A DNA stretch of 64,000 bases from the NCBI GenBank assembly GCA_036924855.1, contig JBAGRP010000001.1, forward strand, positions 2,046,001-2,110,000, read 5' to 3'. Position 1 is the first letter of the stretch. Each line of letters starts with the position of its first letter. Source of the stretch: Nitrobacteraceae bacterium AZCC 2146. Lineage in GTDB: Bacteria; Pseudomonadota; Alphaproteobacteria; Rhizobiales; Xanthobacteraceae. This document shows positions 30,917 through 37,409 of the stretch, piece by piece. The position numbers and the translations under genes are program-made. The notes beneath the pieces were generated by a model. It worked only from the letters and a program-made list of their open reading frames with translations. It did no database searches and had not been told where the DNA came from.

Positions 30917-30922
30917 GTGCTG

Positions 30923-31012
30923 CCGGTCCATGGTCATGTCGCAGTCGATGGCCGGCATAGTGCCATCGCCGAATTTCTCCTCGGTCAGGAGTTTTATCGC
31001 CGGCAGCGCGAC
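30923..31012 (-). pseudogene. Relic of a second cyanase gene
   Basis: Read on the minus strand, this 30-codon stretch gives LTEEKFGDGTMPAIDCDMT, which aligns without gaps to LIEEEFGDGIMSAIDFDMA of the intact cynS about 400 bp away. About three quarters of the bases match by eye. The catalytic serine is replaced by proline. Nothing of the N-terminal HTH domain or the C-terminus is left. It is a decayed duplicate or a remnant of an earlier copy. Confidence 0.7.
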
Positions 31013-31245: not shown

Positions 31246-31288
31246 GTCCCGGCTCGGCGCGCGCACTTCGTGCGCGCCGAGCCGGGAC
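31246..31288. terminator. Strong GC hairpin after cynS
   Basis: GTCCCGGCTCGGCGC (31246-31260) pairs exactly with GCGCCGAGCCGGGAC (31274-31288), with an inner GCA-CTTCG-TGC. It lies 16 bp beyond the cynS stop on the minus strand. It has no T run, so a terminator or 3'-stabilising role is likely but unproven. Confidence 0.5.
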
Positions 31289-31304: not shown

Positions 31305-31793
31305 TCACTCTTCCTTGAAGCCGTATTCCTGGTTGTTGCCGGTGGCGCCGTAATATTTGTACGGCAGGAACTTGCCGGACATGGTGATCTGGACGCGGTC
31401 GCCCTTCGGATTGGCGACGCGGACCATCGCCATGTCGAAGTCGATCGCCGACATGATGCCGTCGCCGAACTCTTCCTCGATCAGTGCCTTCCACGCCGGG
31501 CCGTTGACCAGCACCATCTCGTAGAAGCGATAGATCAAGGGATCGGTCGGCGGCATCGGCGTGTCCACGCCGCGCATCGGGATCTCGTTGAGCATCGCGA
31601 TCTCGCTCTTGCTCAGGCCGAACAATTCGCCGGCCGCGGCGGCCTGCGGTTTTGTCAGCTTCATGTTGCCGAGAATCGCGCCGACGATCAGCACTTCCGA
31701 ATGGCCGCCGATCTTTTCGCAGATGTACTTCCAGCTCCATTCGTTGTCGCGCTTGATGTCGAGCAGCTTTTCGGTGAGGTCGGATCTAATCAT
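31305..31793 (-). CDS. cynS: Cyanate hydratase (cyanase)
   Basis: A 162-residue cyanase, which converts cyanate and bicarbonate to CO2 and carbamate (then ammonium), giving both detoxification and nitrogen. The N-terminal helix-turn-helix-like domain spans about residues 1-80. The catalytic triad is Arg89, Glu92 (YRFYEMV) and Ser115 (DGIMSAIDF), with the same spacing as Arg96, Glu99 and Ser122 of E. coli. It is the last gene of the minus-strand module, 32 bp after the ATPase gene, so it should share the sigma-54 promoter at 35355. Confidence 0.96.
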   Translation of the reverse strand: MIRSDLTEKLLDIKRDNEWSWKYICEKIGGHSEVLIVGAILGNMKLTKPQAAAAGELFGLSKSEIAMLNEIPMRGVDTPMPPTDPLIYRFYEMVLVNGPAWKALIEEEFGDGIMSAIDFDMAMVRVANPKGDRVQITMSGKFLPYKYYGATGNNQEYGFKEE

Positions 31794-31825
31794 TTTTTTT
31801 GCTCCTGTGTGAATCGATGAAATGT

Positions 31826-32722
31826 CTAGCGCGCGGCACTTTGCGCAGGCTGCGTCGCCACCAGCACCGGCTCGGCGAGCAGCGGGCGCACCAGCGGCAC
31901 GTTGCGCGGGTCAAAGTTCGGCGTGGTGCTGGTGAACGTCTTGCTGCGCGTCACCAGGAAATCGATGATGTGGTTGCGCAGCGCGTAATATTGCGGATGG
32001 CGGTGCAGATCGACGCGGGTGCGATCCTTCGGCAGCGGATTTTCCACCACCTCGGCGAGCACCGCGCCGGGTCCGTTGGTCATCAGGAAGATCTTGTCGG
32101 CGAGATACATCGCCTCGTCGACGTCGTGGGTGATCATGAAGGTGGTCTGGCCGGTGTCGAGACAGACGCGGCGCACCTCGTCCTGCAGGGTGCCGCGGGT
32201 GAGTGCGTCCAGCGCCGAAAACGGCTCGTCCATCAGCATGATCTTCGGCGTGATCGACAGCGCGCGCGCAATGCCGACGCGCTGCTTCATGCCGCCGGAC
32301 AGCTCCGACGGCCGCTTGTGCTCGGAGCCGGTGAGGCCGACCAGATCGATGAAGGTCTGCGCGTGGGCCTTCACTTTGGCCTTGTCCCATGTGCGCCATT
32401 TCGAGCTCACGGCATAAGCGACGTTGCCCATCACCGTGCGCCACGGCAGCAGCGCGTGGCTCTGGAAGATCACCGCGCGGTCGAGGCTGGTGCCCTGGAT
32501 CTCCTGGCCGTCGACGATCACGGTGCCGGCGCTCGGCGCGTCGAGCCCGGCGAGGATGTTGAGCACGGTCGTCTTGCCGCATCCGGAATGGCCGATGACG
32601 CAGCCGAACTCGCCCCGCGGCAGCGACAGCCACAGATTCTCGAACACCGCGATCTCGCCGCCACCCGCCCCGGGATAGCGCTTGGCGATGCCCTCGATGG
32701 AAATGAACTTGTTCGAACTCAT
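31826..32722 (-). CDS. ABC transporter ATP-binding protein, nitrate/cyanate/taurine type
   Basis: A 298-residue ABC ATPase with Walker A GHSGCGKTT (near residue 39), Q-loop FQSHALLPW, signature LSGGMKQR, Walker B IMLMDEPFSALDA, and H-loop ITHDVDE. The family is NrtD/CynD/TauB, with a C-terminal extension (after about residue 255) that has no recognised domain. Together with the permease and binding protein upstream and cyanase 32 bp downstream it should power cyanate uptake; specificity is inferred from context. The start is ATG 32722 (MSSNKFISIEGI); the open frame runs on into a repeat. Confidence 0.92.
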   Translation of the reverse strand: MSSNKFISIEGIAKRYPGAGGGEIAVFENLWLSLPRGEFGCVIGHSGCGKTTVLNILAGLDAPSAGTVIVDGQEIQGTSLDRAVIFQSHALLPWRTVMGNVAYAVSSKWRTWDKAKVKAHAQTFIDLVGLTGSEHKRPSELSGGMKQRVGIARALSITPKIMLMDEPFSALDALTRGTLQDEVRRVCLDTGQTTFMITHDVDEAMYLADKIFLMTNGPGAVLAEVVENPLPKDRTRVDLHRHPQYYALRNHIIDFLVTRSKTFTSTTPNFDPRNVPLVRPLLAEPVLVATQPAQSAAR

Positions 32723-32750
32723 GCTCAACACTTCCACGACGGCAGCGCAC

Positions 32751-32883
32751 CCCCTCGCCCCGCTTGCGGGGAGAGGGTTGGGGTGAGGGGGCGGTTCGAT
32801 AGGCTCGGGACGTTGCAACGCCCCCTCACCCGGACCGCACGCTGACGCGCGCAGTCCGACCTCTCCCCGCAAGCGGGGAGAGG
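32751..32883. repeat. Palindromic repeat, family C, between ABC genes
   Basis: CCCCTCGCCCCGCTTGCGGG... to ...CCCCGCAAGCGGGGAGAGG, with inner GGGTGAGGGGGCG / CGCCCCCTCACCC. It lies between the permease and ATPase genes of the cyanate operon. Confidence 0.85.
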
Positions 32884-32921
32884 TGAAGGTGTGGTGACGC
32901 CTGTGAAATTTTTCATGCGCA

Positions 32922-33761
32922 TCACTCCGGGAACGTAACCATGCGGGTGAAGCGGGCGAGCACCTGATCGAGCAACATGCCGACCACCCCGATCAGCAAA
33001 ATCGCAATGATCACATTGGTGATCGATAAATTATTCCATTCGTTCCAGACGAAGTAACCGATCCCCGTCCCGCCAACGAGCATCTCGGCGGCGACGATGA
33101 CGAGCCACGCGATGCCGATCGAGATCCGCATGCCGGTGAGGATGGTGGGCGCAGCGGCCGGCAGGATCACGGTGAAAGCGCGGCGGAGCGTGCCGACTTC
33201 CAGCGTGCGGGCGACGTTGATCCATTCCTTGCGCACGGCGGCGACGCCGAAGGCGGTGTTGAGCAGCATCGGCCAGATCGAGCAGATGAAGATCACGAAG
33301 ATCGCCGACAGGCCGGAATCCTTGATGGTGTAGAGCGCCAGCGGCATCCAGGCCAGCGGCGAGATCGGCTTCAGCACCTGGATGAAGGGATCGAGCGCCT
33401 TGTTCATCAGCGGCGACATGCCGATCAGGAAGCCCAACGGAATCGCGATCGCCACCGCCAGGAGATAGCCGAGGCCGACGCGGCCGATCGAATAGGCGAG
33501 CTGGATGCCGAGGCCCTTGTCGTTGGGGCCGTTGTCGTAGAACGGCCGCTTCAGGTGCTCCCACAATTTCGCGCCGACATCGAGCGGGCCCGGCATCGCG
33601 GATTTGCCGGCGGTCGCGGTCAGCCCCATCAGCTTGGCGTATTCCGGCGTCATCGCAGCGACGCTGCCGGTGCCGCGCGTGGCGAGGTGCCAGGTGCCGA
33701 TGAAAGCGCAAAGGATCGCGATCGAGACGACCGCGGCGCGGAAGCGGAGGGATTTGGTCAT
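32922..33761 (-). CDS. ABC transporter permease, nitrate/cyanate/taurine type
   Basis: A 279-residue inner-membrane permease with six or so helices and the binding-protein-dependent EAA loop (RTLEVGTLRRAFTVILPAA, near residue 195). It resembles NrtB/CynB/SsuC. An N-terminal helix (residues 8-28) is followed by a periplasmic stretch, then LGYLLAVAIAIPLGFLIGMS. The ATG at 33761 follows GGAGG closely. It lies between the binding-protein and ATPase genes, each gap containing a palindromic repeat. Cyanate is the likely substrate by association with cyanase. Confidence 0.92.
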   Translation of the reverse strand: MTKSLRFRAAVVSIAILCAFIGTWHLATRGTGSVAAMTPEYAKLMGLTATAGKSAMPGPLDVGAKLWEHLKRPFYDNGPNDKGLGIQLAYSIGRVGLGYLLAVAIAIPLGFLIGMSPLMNKALDPFIQVLKPISPLAWMPLALYTIKDSGLSAIFVIFICSIWPMLLNTAFGVAAVRKEWINVARTLEVGTLRRAFTVILPAAAPTILTGMRISIGIAWLVIVAAEMLVGGTGIGYFVWNEWNNLSITNVIIAILLIGVVGMLLDQVLARFTRMVTFPE

Positions 33762-33775
33762 GGCGTTGCGGTCCG

Positions 33776-33922
33776 TGTCCCGGGCGCGGTGCAGTACGTC
33801 GCGCAGCGACGTGGTGCGCCGCAGACCCGGGACCCACGCGTTGCGCGATGCAGGAATGGGTCCCGGATCTGCGAAGCAGCACATCGCACGTCGTGCGCTG
33901 TGCCGCATCGCGTCCGGGACAC
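33776..33922. repeat. Palindromic repeat, family F (GTGTCCCGG...CCGGGACAC)
   Basis: GTGTCCCGGGCGCGG (33776 on) is complemented by CGCGTCCGGGACAC (to 33922). Inner arms are GACCCGGGACCCACGCG and CAGGAATGGGTCCCGGATC. It lies between the binding-protein and permease genes of the operon. Confidence 0.75.
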
Positions 33923-33933
33923 GAGGCTGTTCA

Positions 33934-35322
33934 TTACGTCGCCTTCTTGATCTTGAAGCTGGCGAGATATTCCGCGGGCTTGGCGGGATCGAAGGTTTTG
34001 CCCATCACCTGGAAGGATTTGTACGACGAGGCCGGCGGCGTCAGGCCCATCTCCTTCATCACCTTGGCGGTGTCGGCGGCGAGATAGATCTGCTCGGCCA
34101 CGCCCTTGTAGTCGACGTCGCCCTTGATCTGGCCCCAGCGCTGCATCTGCGTCATCATCCACACCGCGAAGGACTGCCACGGGAACGGATCGAAATCGAC
34201 GCGCTTGGCATCGGTCTTGATGTTGCCGAGGCCGTCCGCATAGGTACCGGTCAGCGCCTGCTCCAGCACTACCGGCGGCGCGTTGAGATAGTTCGCGGGC
34301 GCAATGGCCTCGGCGATCGACTTGCGGTTCTCCGCCTTCGACGCATACGCAGTGGCATCGACGATGGCGCGGGTCAGCGCGGCGAACGAGTTCGGCGAGG
34401 TGGTGATGAATTCCTTGCTGGCGGCGAAGCTGCAGCACGGATGGCCGTCCCAGATTTCCTTCGACAGGATGTGCATGAAGCCGACGCCGTCATAGATCGC
34501 GCGCTGGCAGATGTTGTCCGGCGCGAGAAAGCCGTCGATGTTGTCGGCGCGCAGATTGGCGACCATTTCCGGCGGCGGCACCGAGCGCAGCTGCACGTCG
34601 GTGTCGGGATCGATGCCGTGCTCGGCGAGATAATAGCGCAGCAGGTAGTTGTGCATCGAATAGTCGAAGGGAATCGCGAGCTTGAAGCCCTTCCAGTCCT
34701 TCGGGTCGCGCTTGTCCTTGTGCTTCATGGCCAGCGTGATGCCCTGGCCGTTGATGTTCTCGATCGCCGGCACCGTGAACGGAATCGGCGTCGATCCCAG
34801 CCCCAGCGAGATCGCGATCGGCATCGGCGCCAGCATGTGCGCGGCGTCATATTCCTTGTTGATCGCCTTGTCGCGAATGACGGCCCAGCCGGCGGTCTTC
34901 ACCACGTCCACGTTGAGGCCCTGCTTGGTGTAGAAGCCAAGCGGATGCGCCATGATGATCGGCGTCGCGCAGGTGATCGGAATGAAACCGACCTTGAGAT
35001 CGGTCTTTTCGAGTTTGCCGACGCCCTGCGCGAACACCTCGGTGGCCGTCTTGATCGGGAAGAACTGCGACAGCACGGCGAGCGCCGAGGACGCACCGAC
35101 CGATTTCAGGAACGCGCGCCGCGCGACTTCCTTGGGAAACACCGCGCGCATCACCGCGGAGGCCACCACACCCTCATAGCGCTGCGCCTCGCTCTCGGGG
35201 GCAACGCATTGCATCGCCGGCTGCAGGCTGGCGTCATGCTCGCTGGCGCTGGCATGCTGGCCGCAAGAGCAGCCGGAGCGCAGACGACGGGCGGGATCGA
35301 ATGGATTGTCGAACGTGGACAT
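33934..35322 (-). CDS. NrtA/CynA-like substrate-binding protein with Cys-rich N-terminus
   Basis: A 462-residue periplasmic receptor of the NrtA/CmpA/CynA group (KVGFIPITCATPIIMAHPLG near residue 110 starts the mature domain). A Tat-type leader, ARRAFLKSVGAS (residues 66-77), is preceded by about 65 extra residues containing CSCGQH (residues 18-23) and one more Cys. This could bind metal or be a regulatory head, but such an extension is unusual. AGGAGGT precedes the ATG at 35322. It is the first gene of the cyanate operon and lies about 20 bases after the predicted sigma-54 start site. Cyanate specificity is inferred from cynS. Confidence 0.9.
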   Translation of the reverse strand: MSTFDNPFDPARRLRSGCSCGQHASASEHDASLQPAMQCVAPESEAQRYEGVVASAVMRAVFPKEVARRAFLKSVGASSALAVLSQFFPIKTATEVFAQGVGKLEKTDLKVGFIPITCATPIIMAHPLGFYTKQGLNVDVVKTAGWAVIRDKAINKEYDAAHMLAPMPIAISLGLGSTPIPFTVPAIENINGQGITLAMKHKDKRDPKDWKGFKLAIPFDYSMHNYLLRYYLAEHGIDPDTDVQLRSVPPPEMVANLRADNIDGFLAPDNICQRAIYDGVGFMHILSKEIWDGHPCCSFAASKEFITTSPNSFAALTRAIVDATAYASKAENRKSIAEAIAPANYLNAPPVVLEQALTGTYADGLGNIKTDAKRVDFDPFPWQSFAVWMMTQMQRWGQIKGDVDYKGVAEQIYLAADTAKVMKEMGLTPPASSYKSFQVMGKTFDPAKPAEYLASFKIKKAT

Positions 35323-35354
35323 GTGACCTCCTGCGTGGCGTTGCCAATGGTTAC

Positions 35355-35369
35355 GCAAGGAGTGTGCCA
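35355..35369 (-). promoter_or_regulatory. Sigma-54 (-24/-12) promoter of the cyanate operon
   Basis: On the minus strand the sequence reads TGGCACACTCCTTGC, a full match to the TGGCAY-R-N4-TTGC consensus with the required 10-base distance from GG to GC. It lies 33 bp before the binding-protein ATG, and the divergent gene encodes a sigma-54 activator. Confidence 0.85.
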
Positions 35370-35428
35370 GCCGCGAAGCAGCGGAAATGCCCAATCGCCG
35401 CAGGCGTTTCGGCCATTAGTTGGAAACT

Positions 35429-35473
35429 ACGAAAAATCGTGATACACGAAAATTCGTAATTGAATTACGAATT
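35429..35473. promoter_or_regulatory. Dyad array, probable activator-binding sites
   Basis: Three related dyads: ACGA-AAAA-TCGT (35429-35440), ACGA-AAAT-TCGT (35446-35457), and the 23-base perfect palindrome AATTCGTAATT-G-AATTACGAATT (35451-35473). They lie about 60-120 bp upstream of the sigma-54 promoter, the usual place for enhancer sites, and immediately before the activator start, so they may also control the activator itself. Confidence 0.65.
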
Positions 35474-35489
35474 CTCGGAGTTCTGCGTG

Positions 35490-37409
35490 ATGGATTTCTC
35501 GTCGCATACGCTTGCCGCCACGATCCTCGATGCCGACCTGCGCACCGTCACCTTCGACTACGCGGTCGAGCCGACGCTGCTGCTCGATCCCCACGCCGAC
35601 CAGATCGTCGATGCCAATCCGGCCGCCTGCGCCCTGCTCGGCTATGACCGCGCGCTGCTGCGGCTGACCAAGATCAGCGCGCTGCATGAAGGGCAATTGC
35701 CGGCGCTGATCGTGTTCACGCAAGCCGTGCTCGCCAAGGGCGCGTACTGGACCAATACGCTGACGCCGCGCCATGCGACGGGGCAAGCGCTGCGGCTGGA
35801 ATATGCGGGCTCGCTGGTGCCGCAGGGCGAGCGCTCCTTGCTGCTGCTGACCATGAGCGATCTCGAGCAGCGCCGCCGCCGCCATGTCGATGCCGCCGCC
35901 GAAGACCACATGCGCGGCGGCATCGCCGCCTGGCAACGCGTCGAGCGGGTGTTCCAGGACATCGAGCGCGAGAACCAGCTGATCCTGCGCGCCGCCGGCG
36001 AAGGCATCTATGGCGTCAATGCCGAGGGCAAGACCACCTTCGTCAATCCCGCCGCCGAACGCATGCTGGGCTGGGCCGCGGACGAACTCGTCGGCAAGGA
36101 GATTCATCCGATCGTGCATCACAGCCATCACGACGGCAGCCATTATCCCGATCACGACTGCCCGATCTATGCGGCGTTTCGTGACGGCGCCGTGCACAAC
36201 GTCGACAACGAGGTGTTCTGGCGCAAGGACGGTTCGCCGGTGTGGGTCGAGTACACCTCGACGCCGATCCGCGACCGCAGCATGGTGGTCGGCGCGGTGA
36301 TCGTGTTTCGCGATGTCAGCCAGCGCCGCGAGGCCGATGAAAAGCTGCACGCCGCGCTCGCTGAAGTCGATCGCCTGCGCGAGCGGCTTGAGCTGGAAAA
36401 CGCCTATCTGCAGGAAGAGATAAGGATCGAGACCAATCCACGCGGCATCATCGGGCAGTCGGAGGCGATCCAGAAGACGCTGCGTCAGGTCAAGCTGGTG
36501 GCGCCGACCACCGCGGCGGTGATGATTTCAGGCGAGTCCGGCACCGGCAAGGAACTGATCGCCCGCGCCATCCACGAGGCCTCCGGCCGCCGCGACCGGC
36601 CGCTGATCCGCGTCAACTGCGCGGCGATCCCGCGTGAACTGTTCGAGAGCGAATTCTTCGGCCATGTCCGCGGCGCCTTTACCGGCGCGGTGCGCGACCG
36701 CATCGGCCGGTTTGAGCTGGCCTCCGGCGGCACGCTGTTTCTCGACGAGGTCGGCGAAATTCCGCTGGAGCTGCAGGGCAAGCTGCTGCGCGTCTTGCAG
36801 GAGGGAAATTTCGAACGCGTCGGCGAGGAGCGCACGCGCAGCGTCGATGTCCGCGTCATCGCTGCCACCAACCGCAATCTCAAGCAGGAGGTGCAGCGCG
36901 GAAGGTTTCGCGAAGATCTGTATTTCCGGCTCAACGTATTTCCGGTCGAATCCGTGCCGCTGCGCGACCGCCGCGAGGACATCCCGCTGCTGGCGCAGCA
37001 TTTTCTGATGAGCGAAAAACTGAAGTCCGATCTGCGATTGTCGGAAGGCGATGCGCGGCGGCTGTCGCGCTACGACTGGCCCGGCAATGTCCGCGAACTG
37101 CAGAACGTGATCGAGCGCGCCGCGATCCTGGCGCAGAACGGGCGGCTGCGGATCGACCTGCCAGACGCACCCGGCCCGCATCATGCGTCAACATCAGGCC
37201 GCGCGAAGACCGACGCCAAGCCGGCGGTGATGACCTCGGCGGAAATGCGCGATCACGAGCGAAGCAACATTCTGGCGGCGCTCGCGGCGTGCAACGGCAA
37301 GGTGTTCGGCCCCGGCGGCGCGGCCGAGCTGCTGGATCTCAGGCCGACGACGCTGTCGTCGCGAATGAAGGCGCTGGGGATTGCGGGGGCGCGGACAAGA
37401 GTGGGCTGA
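35490..37409 (+). CDS. Sigma-54-dependent transcriptional activator (PAS-PAS-AAA+-Fis)
   Basis: A 639-residue enhancer-binding protein. A PAS-like domain (about residues 10-120) is followed by a second PAS (about 165-285) with the His-rich segment [16 protein letters not shown]. Next comes a coiled linker, then the AAA+ domain: Walker A GESGTGKE (348), the sigma-54-contacting GAFTGA (395), and Walker [13 protein letters not shown] Fis-type helix-turn-helix is at about 590-630 ([18 protein letters not shown]). There is no receiver domain, so it senses a signal directly through PAS. CGGAG spaces well to the ATG at 35490; a GTG at 35487 is an alternative. It is divergent from the cyanate operon, its likely target. 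Confidence 0.93.

Follow-up and report, generated by a model that had tools for sequence, protein, structure and literature searches.

A probable CynF-type cyanate assimilation module in Nitrobacteraceae bacterium AZCC 2146 and its tandem dyads

The window analysed here is a 64,000-nucleotide stretch (positions 2046001-2110000) of the genome of Nitrobacteraceae bacterium AZCC 2146, a single contig of 7.64 Mb. Five genes at 31305-37409 of the window, cynS, cynD, cynB and cynA on the minus strand and a divergent activator gene on the plus strand, very probably constitute a CynF-type cyanate assimilation module, in which the activator, acting at dyads in the intergenic region, would drive a sigma-54 promoter of cynABDS.

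A CynF regulator beside cynABDS

Gene family searches identified cynA (33934-35322, minus strand; a substrate-binding protein of 462 aa with, by eye, a twin-arginine-like signal), cynB (32922-33761, minus strand; an ATP-binding cassette (ABC) transporter permease of 279 aa), cynD (31826-32722, minus strand; an ABC transporter ATPase of the nitrate/cyanate type) and cynS (31305-31793, minus strand; cyanase, 162 aa). The activator gene (35490-37409, plus strand) encodes 639 aa, and 167 bp lie between the cynA ATG (35322) and its own ATG (35490). Pfam found in its product two PAS domains and a sigma-54 interaction domain of the AAA+ type with an intact GAFTGA loop, followed by a Fis-like C-terminus. 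No receiver domain was found in the activator by Pfam, which sets it apart from NtrC-class response regulators. A preliminary description of the window, made from the letters alone, had listed the four minus-strand genes, a full-consensus -24/-12 element before the first of them, and a divergent activator with GAFTGA, two PAS domains and no receiver; each of these was confirmed, the genes running from 35322 to 31305 and the exact element lying 32 nt ahead of cynA.

The published counterpart is CynF of Pseudomonas pseudoalcaligenes (oleovorans) CECT5344, a sigma-54-dependent regulator encoded divergently from cynABDS at 268 bp from cynA, with a putative sigma-54 site ahead of cynA (PMC6627978). 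In that species the CynF mutant has no cyanase, cyanase is induced by cyanate and is repressed by ammonium even when cyanate is present (PMC6627978, Table 1), and loss of CynABD delays cyanate uptake. The flanking genes are gltD beside cynF and hemE after cynS, and the main text of the paper mentions neither a "PAS domain" nor dyads (PMC6627978). Among the loci that we compared, L245 and L247 show a cynF-cynA gap of precisely 268 bp, gltD adjoins cynF in L245, L247 and L249, and hemE follows cynS in L248 and L249. CynF at the loci of this arrangement is 58% identical to the window activator over residues 29-631, and that of L245 shows the order PAS-PAS-sigma54 in Pfam, the same domains as in the window. 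From the matching arrangement, the identity and the shared domains, the window regulator is, on sequence grounds, a CynF, and the module a copy of the published Pseudomonas system in the Tardiphaga/Bradyrhizobium group. Gene content and order, the divergent sigma-54 activator and the putative sigma-54 site before cynA are common to the window and CECT5344, as are, at loci of the matching arrangement, the PAS-PAS-AAA+ architecture and usually the dyads; the two differ in sequence (58% identity) and in the gap (268 bp versus 167 bp to the ATG in the window). Among the loci compared, the closest activators were those of Tardiphaga (97% for L070; 92-93% identity for T. robiniae).

The preliminary description knew of no PAS-type sigma-54 regulator for cyanate, which was wrong, since CynF had been published (PMC6627978). 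Its proposal that a direct-sensor activator controls a local sigma-54 module, in contrast to the LysR-type control by CynR, was well founded. The cynTSX operon of E. coli, with the LysR-type activator CynR, a carbonic anhydrase and a major facilitator superfamily transporter (PMC6627978), resembles the window in being a cyanase operon with an adjacent activator but differs in all three of these components. LysR-type control was rejected for the window because the regulator adjoining the cynS operon is a sigma-54 activator.

The linkage of the activator to cynS, which had been suggested as a check, was examined in two genome samples, the window's own genome being counted in both. In the family, cynS was present in 106 of 149 genomes, and the PAS part of the activator gave 49 matches in 48 of the 149. 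For 46 of these 49 matches, cynS lay within 10 kb; of the three others, two came from genomes in which cynS had no match, and the third was a weak second match. In the class sample, cynS was found in 33 of 289 genomes and PAS-part matches in 27, and the 14 cynS-linked matches out of 31 were exactly those covering both PAS domains (14/14), while the 17 unlinked ones cover PAS2 only. Homologous activators are thus nearly always beside cynS in the family, where their never being found there had been named as grounds for refutation. The named loci, the best 80 of at least 580 candidates, include many close Bradyrhizobium relatives, so their counts are not independent; 68 of them carry cynS. The 12 that do not comprise eight on short contigs or contig ends, L139 with its cynS on another contig, and three Pseudomonas loci.

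The cynABDS promoter and the tandem dyads

The -24/-12 element TGGCACACTCCTTGC (35355-35369, minus strand) is an exact match to the sigma-54 promoter consensus, and rpoN is present in the window's genome. Its conservation was measured in 75 loci, the window and 74 of the 80 named ones (L076, L080, L082, L142, L145 and L148 were left out for odd gene order, a contig end or no cyn gene adjoining the regulator). On the strand of the divergent operon, the element occurred without mismatch in 33 loci and with one mismatch in 38, together 71 of 75, compared with 0.05 and 0.5 per 75 in the shuffled control; at 0-1 mismatch it was not found in L077, L111, L135 and L143. Mutants of rpoN in Bradyrhizobium sp. 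DOA9 show reduced cynS expression, and an RpoN box TGGCATGCTCCTTGC at -36 is listed there for a nitrate-type binding protein gene (PMC13207237). The cynA promoter of 16 of the 75 loci has this very string TGGCATGCTCCTTGC, and the listed DOA9 gene is likely to be cynA. A simple scan, which proves little, showed no sigma-70 promoter for cynF.

Three dyads of consensus TACGA-N4-TCGTA stand in tandem in the cynA/cynF intergenic region: TACGAAAAATCGTG (35428-35441), CACGAAAATTCGTA (35445-35458) and TACGAATTCTCGGA (35466-35479), their midpoints lying 91.5, 108.5 and 129.5 bp ahead of the predicted start of cynA. Together they make up a candidate CynF enhancer, with no strand assigned. Dyads 2 and 3 together form the perfect palindrome AATTCGTAATTGAATTACGAATT. 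Allowing up to two mismatches, and taking expectations from dinucleotide shuffles, we found at least one dyad in all 75 loci (7.1 expected); 72 of them have two or more (0.35 expected). The starts are spaced by 17 then 21 bp in 45 loci and by 17 then 22 bp in 13. At least two were also present in 10/10 additional full-length family members and in 0/6 PAS2-only proteins. Across the 7.64-Mb genome there is a single exact pair at 17-bp spacing; beyond it, pairs at 2-3 mismatches are at background (25 per strand versus 23 in the control), and further genome-wide CynF targets were rejected on that ground.

In L216, of the same genus, cynABDS is kept but the regulator is gone, with no match in the genome and none in 14 kb; the 600 bp searched contain no dyad, and TGGCACACTCCTTGC still stands 33 nt from cynA. 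The joint loss of regulator and dyads, in this one case, ties the dyads to the regulator. The dyads are probably the sites gripped by CynF, a view drawn from their conservation, and as they directly precede cynF, CynF probably controls its own gene as well. No mention of CynF sites or of such dyads was found in open-licence PubMed Central papers, supplements aside, and the three-dyad array looks new. NorR of norVW is likewise a direct-sensor activator with a three-site enhancer, but it has a GAF sensor and its three sites are of another sequence.

CynF, NitA and a branch without GAFTGA

In the family of G606, 17 of 26 matches were fetched as loci, nine of them with cynS and eight with a nitrilase that shares 77-95% identity with the NitC-like protein of L145. 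The L145 nitrilase adjoins radical-SAM, GNAT and AIRS genes and thus belongs to a nit1C cluster, the regulator of which, NitA, is a Fis-family sigma-54 protein (PMC11049912). NitA-type regulators with the dyads of the CynF family were found at the nitrilase clusters of L145, L193, L251, L253, L254 and L256-L260, and in a quick tree of 106 rows, thinned by hand, 12 NitA rows fell on one side of a branch with support 100, inside the CynF family. At least two dyads were present in 15 of the 17 G606-family loci, and the -24/-12 element at 0-1 mismatch in eight, of which only L255 is cynS-linked. Because nitrilase clusters carry the same dyads ahead of NitA, CynF and NitA are, by this evidence, one family. 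They share 55-59% identity, the dyads and an orientation divergent from their targets, and differ in that the targets of NitA belong to the cyanide/nitrile pathway.

The genes beside the regulator also vary at cyanase loci. In all four tested loci of gammaproteobacterial type (L189, L190, L194 and L195), an FNT (formate/nitrite transporter) channel stands in place of the ABC transporter, and in several Methylobacterium loci cynS directly adjoins the regulator. An FNT gene beside cynS and a CynF-like regulator is a candidate cyanate channel.

PAS1 is missing from twelve relatives located next to cyn genes (L147, L149 and L205-L214), and their sigma-54-contact loop is broken in every case, either reading GAFEGA, AAFPGA, GAFPGA or GAFAGA or, in L205-L210, carrying a deletion. 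The regulators in our identity comparison had been picked by a GAFTGA-like motif and were therefore biased, and the loop was recounted without motif preselection: 106 of 118 family members keep it (101 GAFTGA, three GAFSGA and two GSFTGA), among them the NitA of L260, in which the match likewise does not include PAS1, and 12 do not. These 12 may share one origin, the tree support being only 72. All 12 still have the -24/-12 element at 0-1 mismatch, and at least two dyads too, and rpoN was present in 10/10 of the genomes tested. A known parallel is NtrC of Caulobacter and Rhodobacter, which also lacks GAFTGA (PMC10274813). Both are AAA+ regulators that lost the sigma-54-contact loop, but this NtrC is a response regulator and reportedly works at promoters of the sigma-70 type (PMC10274813), whereas the one-PAS relatives still face a -24/-12 element.

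Signal, rival controls and significance

In the mechanism that we propose, dimers of CynF would bind the three tandem dyads, whose centres are about 91, 108 and 129 bp ahead of the predicted start of cynA, and a cyanate-related signal at the sensor region would cause the protein to assemble. DNA looping would bring CynF into contact with the sigma-54 form of RNA polymerase at the -24/-12 element, and CynF would open the cynABDS promoter. The ABC transporter would then import cyanate, which cyanase would convert with bicarbonate to ammonium and CO2, and through the dyads just before cynF the regulator would also control its own gene.

The sensor is open to another reading, namely that CynF responds to redox state, oxygen or a metal through PAS2 and that the effect of cyanate is indirect; we regard this as possible, if somewhat doubtful. 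A structure model of activator residues 1-300 shows two PAS folds. Across 37 aligned N-terminal regions, PAS1 has a single invariant position, N43, and most invariant positions are in PAS2, including H206, H210, H211 and C224 (37/37), which counts for this other reading. All four also occur in 11/11 more distant PAS2 proteins (L178-L188), and no cynS was found near the six of these whose neighbourhoods were checked. The residues therefore mark a PAS subclass and not cyanate sensing, and the idea of a cyanate-specific His/Cys motif was rejected, a point that weighs against cyanate as the ligand. Heme and LOV PAS proteins are among the top Foldseek matches of the PAS model, but these fold matches single out no ligand, and a shared fold shows none. 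The close association of the regulator with cyanate and nitrilase genes and the induction by cyanate in Pseudomonas speak for a cyano-compound signal, and we infer that the PAS region senses cyanate or something related to it.

It is unlikely that general nitrogen control chiefly governs the operon, with NtrC at the sigma-54 promoter and CynF modulating it or following another signal. Such control would fit the ammonium repression in P. pseudoalcaligenes (PMC6627978, Table 1), the promoter that L216 keeps without a regulator, and the -24/-12 element and rpoN retained in the ten genomes with a GAFTGA-less relative. However, P. pseudoalcaligenes has no cyanase without CynF (PMC6627978), and the local dyads are conserved together with the regulator. 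Still less probable is a transporter that mainly carries nitrate or nitrite, with cynS incidental. By family scoring, the cynB permease is above the nitrate-type cut-off and the cynD ATPase near it, so nitrate or nitrite transport is possible on these scores, but cynS stays constant where the transporter varies, as in the Methylobacterium loci with cynS alone and the four with FNT, and Pseudomonas without CynABD takes up cyanate with a delay (PMC6627978). That the promoter match arose by chance is scarcely credible: 15 of 100 shuffled windows carry one such match, so that one per window is not rare, but conservation ahead of the same gene in 71 of 75 loci, against 0.5 in shuffles, rejects it.

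Besides the shared PAS2 motif and the transporter scores, several observations count against a CynF-driven sigma-54 module. Eight of the nine cynS-linked Pseudomonas-family loci lack a -24/-12 element at 0-1 mismatch within 700 bp, despite the published putative site, and two of the nine (L244 and L252) lack dyads at up to two mismatches. The assignment of the DOA9 gene matches a promoter string and not a gene sequence. Of the 106 cynS-bearing family genomes, 60 have no linked regulator, which makes CynF one control of cynS among several. Finally, the need for CynF, the induction by cyanate and the repression by ammonium were shown in Pseudomonas, and the effect of rpoN on cynS in Bradyrhizobium; for the window they are carried over by analogy.

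Apart from these questions, long inverted repeats occupy the gaps of the operon, at 31246-31288 after cynS, 32753-32883 between cynD and cynB and 33774-33923 between cynB and cynA; they are perhaps mobile repeat elements or terminators. A second, degraded cynS piece (29.4 bits) lies at 30917-31003 on the minus strand, ~0.3 kb downstream of cynS, and the congener G124 has a comparable piece ~0.9 kb downstream of its own cynS.

A wider reading, speculative and in our judgement rather improbable as a whole, is that CynF and NitA make up one family of cyano-compound sensors in which His206, His210, His211 and Cys224 of PAS2 would hold a metal or heme binding cyanate or cyanide, the common three-dyad enhancer would couple the sensor to sigma-54, and the branch without the loop would be a repressor or a partner of another activator. 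The module of the window is settled as the CynF system of the Tardiphaga/Bradyrhizobium group, of a kind already known but here in a new lineage, and the parts of specialist interest are the operator array, the link between CynF and NitA and the branch without the loop. The three-site array for CynF and NitA is testable and exact enough to predict regulons, and PAS2 is a conserved sensor candidate throughout this family. Activators that are kept, that are lost with their sites, or that lack the sigma-54 loop offer a natural series for testing how such regulators act, and the regulation of cyanate and of cyanide is joined in one family.

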